Source: Gammaproteobacteria bacterium
Lineage (GTDB): Bacteria; Pseudomonadota; Gammaproteobacteria; Pseudomonadales; Azotimanducaceae
NCBI GenBank assembly: GCA_028821125.1
Contig: JAPPHD010000172.1
Span: 1 to 42,293 of the forward strand
Direction of reading: 5' to 3'
DNA: 42,293 nucleotides
The notes beneath the pieces were generated by a model. That model was not told the DNA's origin, did not search any database, and saw only the letters and a list, made by a program, of their open reading frames with translations. Of this stretch, positions 14,582 to 15,778 are shown piece by piece. The translations under genes and the position numbers were made by a program. Positions within the stretch are counted from its first letter, which is position 1, and each line of letters begins with the position of its first letter.

Positions 14582-14701
14582 CGCAACGCTTGTGGAGTTC
14601 GCCTTCCGCGTCGCGGGTCGAACGACGTTGGAGCCTGGCGTTGATGCTCGAAGATGCTCTATGCTGATGGCAACAGAAAAACGACGAGGCACGGAGGTCC
14701 G

Positions 14702-15262
14702 ATGCCGGTGATTGTCAAGAGACTCTGCCTGATCTGGATATTTGCGGCGCTGCCAGGCGCCGCTCTCGCGGGCGACTACGCCCAGTCCTGGGGGCCGCCC
14801 GTCGGCGCCGCCGCGCCCGCCATCCTGGCCGAAGACCAGGACGGCGTGACTCGCGACCTCACCTCGCTTGCCGGGGAAAACGGCCTGCTGCTGGTGCTGA
14901 GCCGCTCCGCGGACTGGTGACCCTTCTGCCAGGCCCAGTTGGTCCAACTGGAAAAGTGGAGACGGGAATTTGAAGAACTTGGCGTCAACATCGCCGCCAT
15001 GACCTATGACAGCGTCGAGAGCCTCAAGGAGTTCCATGACAGCGAGGCACTCGGCTACCCGCTGCTGCGCGATGAGGATGCGCGGCATGTGAACGGATTC
15101 GGGGTTCCCGACGAAGACCTGGGCGAGGGCATTCCGCGCCCCGGCATGTTCTGGCTCGCGCCGGACGGCAGCATCAGCGCGAAGTTCGCGGTGCCGGGCT
15201 ATCGGACGCGGCCGCCGCTTGCGGAGGTGCTGGCTTCCATCCGTGCGGCGGGGGGCTCCTGA
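14702..15262 (+). CDS. Predicted periplasmic selenoprotein, peroxiredoxin/thioredoxin-fold with UxxC motif
   Basis: If the in-frame TGA at 14918-14920 is read as selenocysteine, one frame of 186 residues runs from the ATG at 14702 (GGAGG ribosome site at 14693-14697) to the TGA at 15260-15262. The N-terminus is a signal peptide (about 23 residues, ending GAALA). The AhpC/TSA-like fold follows: VGAAAPAILAEDQDG, LLLVLSRSADW, then Sec73-Pro-Phe-Cys, QLVQLEKWRREFEELGVNIAAMTYD and LLRDEDARHVNGFGV, with PRPGMFWLAPDGSI later. Relatives have Cys where the TGA lies (SADWCPFC), so TGA replaces exactly the redox residue. The frame is intact on both sides and a SECIS-like hairpin follows. A nonsense mutation is the alternative, but the exact placing makes it less likely. 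Probable role: thiol or peroxide redox chemistry in the periplasm. Confidence 0.85.
14935..14951 (+). promoter_or_regulatory. Putative bacterial SECIS hairpin
   Basis: Stem CCAGTTG (14935-14941) pairs perfectly with CAACTGG (14945-14951), leaving the loop GTC. Bacterial SECIS elements lie inside the coding region just after the UGA, with a small apical loop that has G among its first two bases, roughly 16-37 nt from the UGA. Here the loop starts 21 nt after the TGA, and G is the first loop base. SelB carrying Sec-tRNA would bind it. Structure and spacing are seen; function is inferred. Confidence 0.75.
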
Positions 15263-15271
15263 CCGGACATC

Positions 15272-15778
15272 ATGTTCGCGCTGATTGCCGGTTCCTTTGC
15301 CGCCTATGCCGCCGTTCTGATCGCCGTTGGAGTCTACATCGCGGTCCGGGCGAAGAGCGGCCGCGACTACTTTGCCACCAATGGGACGAGACTCGCGGCG
15401 GTGATCGCCTTCGCGCTCCTGAGCGCGATACCGACCGATATCCTCACCATCATGTTGCTGGGGGTGGTGCGCAATTACATCGATGTCACCGCCAATCTCA
15501 ATCTCTTCCTGGTGGCGGTCGCGCCGGTTGTCACGGCTATCGTCGCCATACAGGCGCTGCTGCTGTCACGGGCCTATCGGTCGCGGCCGCTGCTGCACGG
15601 GGGGATCTACCTCGGCGTGTACGCGGCCGCCCACGCCTTCTGGATGAACCTGCTGTTCAATCCACCTGAAGACATCGTCCGCTACGCGGCCACCATCCTG
15701 ATCTTCGGGTTCCTGGTAATGGTGATCATCGGCAGGTTCGTCTGGCTCCGCCCCGTTCCGGTGGCGGGCTCAGCTTAA
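15272..15778 (+). CDS. Small integral membrane protein of unknown function
   Basis: A 168-residue protein with about five hydrophobic segments (ALIAGSFAAYAAVLIAVGVY, LAAVIAFALLSAIPTDILTI, NLFLVAVAPVVTAIVAIQAL, YLGVYAAAHAFWMNLL, YAATILIFGFLVMVIIG). I do not recognise a family. It starts 9 bp after the selenoprotein stop, so the two are very likely translated from one mRNA. A membrane partner for a periplasmic redox protein would be sensible, but no cysteine pair or heme motif is present to support electron transfer. It converges with the pyruvate carboxylase gene. Confidence 0.65.
   Translation: MFALIAGSFAAYAAVLIAVGVYIAVRAKSGRDYFATNGTRLAAVIAFALLSAIPTDILTIMLLGVVRNYIDVTANLNLFLVAVAPVVTAIVAIQALLLSRAYRSRPLLHGGIYLGVYAAAHAFWMNLLFNPPEDIVRYAATILIFGFLVMVIIGRFVWLRPVPVAGSA

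Follow-up and report, generated by a model that had tools for sequence, protein, structure and literature searches.

The window analysed here, a stretch of 42,293 nucleotides, carries on its forward strand a redoxin gene at 14702..15262, which comprises 186 codons and a terminal TGA when a TGA at codon 73 is read through. A Shine-Dalgarno-like GGAGG (14693..14697, +) can be recognized in the sequence 4 bases 5' of the ATG at 14702. The TGA at codon 73 (14918..14920, +) is the predicted selenocysteine (Sec) codon and would provide U73 of a UxxC pair, the second residue of which, Cys76, is encoded by TGC at 14927..14929 (+) and is invariant in an alignment of 37 rows. The only in-frame stops in 14702-15262 are the TGA at codon 73 and a second TGA at codon 187, which terminates the frame. 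When the former is translated as an amino acid, residues 34-159 match PF00578 (AhpC-TSA; E 2.9e-21); PF08534 (Redoxin; E 1.7e-14) is matched less strongly, and both matches span the TGA. Under translation table 11 the same region yields one ORF at 14654-14920 (88 aa, ATG start) and another at 14939-15262 (107 aa, TTG start). The initial annotation had described one frame split by a single TGA, hidden as two ORFs with the second running from 14939, and continuing intact past the TGA; the absence of any other internal in-frame stop, the two table 11 ORFs and the uninterrupted PF00578 match bear this out. Ordinary gene calling thus cuts in two a gene that is very likely intact. Indeed, we put the probability at roughly 0.95 that this is an intact selenoprotein gene, in which Sec would be incorporated at UGA73 to yield the full 186-residue product, as judged from the sequence comparisons below.

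Codon 73 was compared in 58 loci, 30 of which came from a genome search and 28 from the scan of a collection. The genome search covered 58 genomes including the host's own and gave matches in 43, its size being equal to the number of loci by chance. TGA occupies codon 73 in 49 loci (29 from the genome search, 20 from the collection), TGC or TGT in eight and TGG in one (L017 of genome G024). The TGA is therefore placed where relatives have the first Cys, as the initial annotation had it, and its further expectation that all relatives show either Cys or TGA holds for 57 of the 58 loci, the exception being L017, a decayed copy with internal TAA and TAG codons in addition to the TGG. Outside this count stand L010, a TGA-containing paralogue of the host, and the weaker of two matches in L062 (TGC). 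Although the collection was scanned with peptide patterns that specify Cys at the place of codon 73, TGA copies emerged. Coding sequences are identical in four pairs of the TGA loci, each of which probably represents the same genome deposited in two collections; the coding sequences of L014 (G007) and L047 (Candidatus Azophilus lithoversatilis) are identical over 573 bases. Since G007 is of the same genus as the host, the window probably stems from a relative of that organism. The 48 bases starting at the TGA yield 42 distinct sequences among the 49 TGA loci.

Since the same codon is TGA in 49 of the 58 loci, the stop codon is not a chance event, and we reject a sequencing error as its cause. 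The same distribution speaks against a pseudogene, in which the TGA would be disabling and the gene in decay. Such decay does occur among the relatives, as visible in L017, but the gene studied here has no further internal stop and purifying selection acts on both sides of its TGA. In a comparison of the gene with seven relatives, dN/dS amounted to 0.25-0.34 on either side of the TGA for the closest three (L044, L041 and L043) and to 0.13-0.34 for L012, L013 and L014, while synonymous sites were saturated for L015. We regard a decaying gene as highly improbable.

By their titles, seven of the eight Cys records belong to Alphaproteobacteria or groups within it and one to Opitutales; Hyphomicrobiales, Kordiimonadaceae and Novosphingobium, which occur among these records, are taken by us to be Alphaproteobacteria. 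Among the 20 collection records with TGA, 16 bear the title Gammaproteobacteria or Pseudomonadales, and the remaining four are labelled Candidatus Azophilus (Pseudomonadales), K189A clade, OM182 and Proteobacteria. In a quick, midpoint-rooted tree of 53 distinct proteins, the 45 Sec and the eight Cys forms fall on opposite sides of one branch, which has an SH-aLRT value of 93, below the value of 95 starred by the tool. Among the 50 loci compared here from the clade of the TGA copies, there is no Cys copy (49 TGA and the decayed TGG copy). An alignment of 37 of the 58 sequences (29 Sec, 8 Cys) shows complete conservation of G61, R68, S69, W72, U/C73, C76, Q79, G94, L122, D124, G143, R170 and P171. 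Tentatively, these proteins may constitute a distinct subfamily of exported Sec redoxins with the signature RS-x-x-W-U-x-x-C, found in one clade of Gammaproteobacteria; if so, the absence of Cys copies would suggest a reaction in the periplasm that truly needs selenium. In a class-wide draw of 369 genomes, 326 of which lie outside the listing, and with at most eight candidates scored per genome, at least 22 other genomes among those listed have a match at 1e-20; 21 of these matches are free of inner stops and one contains TAA, as counted by inner stops rather than at codon 73. Four others among the genomes listed are of the same order, and none is marked as belonging to the same family.

Behind the TGA lies a SECIS-type hairpin (14935..14951, +), to which the initial annotation had not referred and in which 14935-14940 pair with 14946-14951 and the loop at 14941-14945 holds an invariant G-U. 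Starting at the TGA, 48 bases can be aligned gap-free across 42 distinct Sec genes, which share a stem of six pairs and a five-base loop (N-G-U-N-N), the latter starting 20 bases after the UGA. Pairing is possible in 98.8% of the 252 cells of this alignment, both sides are changed in a compensatory manner in 30 cells, and the covariation score is 0.352 as compared to 0.148 after shuffling. None of 500 shuffles reached the observed pairing, number of compensated cells or covariation score. The other two of five measures of covariation lie within the range of the shuffles: three pairs show a change on both sides, a number equalled or exceeded in 63 of 500 shuffles, and seven further pair types occur, equalled or exceeded in 81 of 500. 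When the hairpin partner was slid along the alignment, at most 47.6% of cells paired, and RNAalifold returned the same six pairs. In the eight Cys homologues, 58.3% of the cells pair at the corresponding place, a value equalled or exceeded in 181 of 500 shuffles.

The pair formed by columns 22 and 30 is U-A in 25 rows and C-G in 17, with zero mismatches. Its first column lies in a codon for Leu (TTG or CTN) in 37 of the 42 rows and for Phe (TTC) in five, and its partner column is the third base of a Gln or Glu codon, so that the combined switch is in large part silent at the protein level; the tree requires three changes of this pair, which is too few for a sign test. Folded alone, the hairpin of the window shows no exceptional stability (z -1.07, equalled or surpassed by 28 of 200 shuffles), and the hairpin signal derives from the comparison of relatives. 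Codon identity is 0.57 over the hairpin versus 0.41 outside (0.46 versus 0.40 in the Cys set), a modest increase which we therefore do not take as proof. An Rfam search of 14880-15000 gave no match to a SECIS family. The bacterial SECIS model outlined in PMC13188914 places the element 16-37 bases behind the UGA, with an upper stem of 4-16 bp, a loop of 3-9 bases and a G in the first two loop positions; the hairpin falls within these ranges of distance, stem and loop size, and has its G at the second loop position.

The genome carrying the redoxin gene (5.28 Mb, 193 contigs, 97.3% complete) encodes a complete Sec system. The tRNA-Sec (C142:92461-92549) scores 75.8 bits, with the next best match at 41.2 bits, and ARAGORN assigns it the anticodon TCA. 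It is preceded on the same contig and in the same direction by selA (L011:3078-4469; 518.7 bits) and selB (L011:4562-6424; 386.7 bits), both of which score above their cut-offs, and follows 37 bases behind selB. For selD, a match of 277 bits was obtained (cut-off 125). The protein, encoded on C33 (L069:1393-3576), is a frame of 727 residues in which a pyridine-nucleotide oxidoreductase domain is fused to SelD, and it carries a CxxC motif (CGGC), presumably at the place where the active site is expected. This agrees with the description of Ndh-SelD fusions in PMC2398784. The initial annotation had named the absence of selA, selB and tRNA-Sec as grounds for rejection and proposed to look for these and selD; as all four are found in the genome, such absence is excluded. 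From the computed genes and hairpin we infer that SelB loaded with Sec-tRNA-Sec would bind the hairpin just behind UGA73, whereupon Sec would be inserted at this codon and the ribosome would complete the 186-residue protein.

An interpretation of the TGA as another residue such as Trp, through code reassignment or plain read-through, would account for the frame as well, since the latter is open under any code that reads TGA. However, TGA ends selA and selB themselves, which identifies it as a stop codon in the host organism, and it also ends 7 of 16 hand-picked long ORFs of the window. Moreover, a tRNA-Trp with anticodon CCA is present in the host genome alongside the full Sec system, and the intact homologues have Cys rather than Trp at codon 73. 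We consider this interpretation even less credible than decay of the gene. As a separate observation, a frame for a phage-type integrase with arm-binding and central domains (L011:6462-7592 on C142) starts approximately 170 bases behind tRNA-Sec, a proximity which suggests that the tRNA gene serves as integration site; however, the part of the contig downstream of tRNA-Sec showed no repeat of the 3' end of this gene.

Of 32 genomes that carry a TGA copy, the host included, 29 have a tRNA-Sec of at least 59 bits, versus 8 of the 26 genomes that lack such a copy (Fisher p 4.2e-6 in a test that ignores kinship, by which the association is confounded). The TGA-copy genomes have matches of E 1e-20 or better; 29 were checked at the codon and three are known solely as containing one inner TGA. 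The line of 59 bits is our own, the cut-off of the family being 47 bits. At 59 bits, tRNA-Sec was not found in the TGA-bearing genomes G026, G030 and G036. G030 possesses selA and selB, the latter near a contig end, G026 has a SelB-like match of 194 bits, which is under the cut-off, and the SelB search of G036 returned nothing over the cut-off. In a second set, which comprised the genomes of all eight Cys loci plus those of seven TGA loci among the 20 from the collection, tRNA-Sec reached 59 bits in 6 of 7 TGA genomes and 1 of 8 Cys genomes, the exceptions being the genome of L058 (TGA, without tRNA-Sec) and that of L062 (Cys, with tRNA-Sec). At 47 bits the figures are 6 of 7 and 5 of 8; the matches of 47-52 bits in four Cys genomes may be candidate tRNA-Sec genes or other long-arm tRNAs. 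G024, the genome of L017 and L077, has a tRNA-Sec and no SelB over the cut-off, and the coincidence of a decayed copy with a lacking selB could reflect either loss of the Sec system or an assembly gap. A tie between selB loss and gene decay in G024 is unsupported, as this genome, 91% complete, retains tRNA-Sec and a further redoxin frame with TGA.

AlphaFold2 modelled the redoxin with a mean pLDDT of 92.1, Cys being written at residue 73. The best Foldseek matches include BcpB, Bcp4, PrxQ, AhpE and ResA-type chains; for the PrxQ/Bcp and AhpE peroxiredoxins, TM-scores normalized by target length reach 0.87. All 11 NCBIfam models listed score below their cut-offs; thiol peroxidase comes first (NF006960; 41.4 bits, cut-off 140) and SelL-related second (NF040769; E 1.5e-10 and 41 bits, cut-off 120, by which the protein is not a member), with ResA likewise among the best (35.5 bits, cut-off 170). 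In profile alignments, U73 and Cys76 coincide with the CxxC pair of ResA (chain 3c71, a CPHC variant), Sec replacing its first Cys; Cys76 also coincides with the Cys of PrxQ-type enzymes, which hold S or T at the place of U73. On the basis of these alignments, attack by Sec73 and resolution by Cys76 appears the likely chemistry, a scheme which we take from the enzymology of thioredoxin folds. In this scheme, a selenenylsulfide between Sec73, the nucleophile, and Cys76, the resolving thiol, would form and subsequently be reduced. The genome contains one match to a DsbD-type protein (64.6 bits), a possible source of the reductant.

The redoxin most likely works as a ResA-type thiol-disulfide oxidoreductase on a peroxiredoxin-like backbone. 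Peroxide reduction is possible, and a selenoprotein serving mainly this purpose, i.e. a true peroxiredoxin, would retain Sec and be a variant of the explanation given above. The closest solved folds, among them BcpB, Bcp4, PrxQ and AhpE, and the PF00578 match are in line with such a function. However, the peroxiredoxin motif PxxxTxxC/U is absent: the sequence reads RSADWUPFC, the T position of TxxC being held by U or C, which gives UxxC. In addition, the Arg near the active site of PrxQ-type enzymes, to which we ascribe a role in that enzyme type, aligns with Pro. We therefore consider a predominant peroxidase function unlikely, also in view of the motif TxxU published for Sec peroxiredoxins (PMC13188914).

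Residues 1-23 (14702..14770, +), ending in LPGAALA and followed by G, resemble a signal peptide according to a simple rule of our own, and pLDDT is low at the N-terminus (57-61 over residues 1-20). The rule is passed by 47 of 52 distinct proteins; a wrong choice of start codon is perhaps partly responsible for the five that fail. The N-terminus would thus likely direct the redoxin to the periplasm. The five failures would agree with a cytoplasmic protein or with one tethered to the membrane by its N-terminus, an arrangement we deem improbable given the 47 that pass and the GGAGG preceding the ATG at 14702. Of the exported selenoprotein proposed by the initial annotation, the selenoprotein part is well supported, while export is likely only. 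A periplasmic location raises the question of the advantage that a selenol offers over a thiol in this compartment.

Redoxin selenoproteins with Sec in place of Cys are already known, as the initial annotation had stated (PMC2398784, PMC13188914). Prx-like UxxC selenoproteins with PF00578 are tabulated in PMC13188914, PMC9312934 and PMC2398784, and 'Prx-like 1' of the GOS survey comprises 225 Sec and 2,740 Cys sequences (PMC2398784). The redoxin gene fits these descriptions by domain and motif, and in both cases Cys homologues exist. Its likely export has no counterpart in these descriptions: the term 'signal peptide' has no occurrence in the main texts of PMC2398784, PMC9312934 and PMC13188914. 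Our literature search found no paper on a periplasmic selenoprotein or on Candidatus Azophilus, and nothing on the family of this gene among the papers listed. The Redoxin family selenoprotein (PF08534, UxxC; PMC13188914) is likewise similar by description, but PF00578 is the stronger match here. The gene would therefore add a probably exported member with a covarying SECIS-type hairpin to the UxxC Prx-like selenoproteins.

Nine bases downstream of the redoxin gene, a hydrophobic protein of 168 residues is encoded (15272..15778, +), which lacks a Pfam or NCBIfam match. It contains no Cys and is therefore unlikely to pass electrons by thiols. When six neighbouring ORFs of the window were compared with the 28 collection loci (flanks of up to 4 kb), only this ORF was matched; it adjoins the redoxin gene in five loci, all of close relatives, and L045 ends too soon to tell. 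Other redoxin frames with TGA were also noticed. At L078:866-2131 (G024, C38), a frame with STVW-U-PPC is followed by a long C-terminal region, and the 60 bases from its TGA fold with -20.1 kcal/mol (a single fold without control). The host itself has another redoxin frame that contains an in-frame TGA, located at L010:1456-1962 (G000, C147; likely ATG at 1489), which reads GHW-U-PFC, matches AhpC-TSA with E 1.2e-15 and possibly represents a further selenoprotein.
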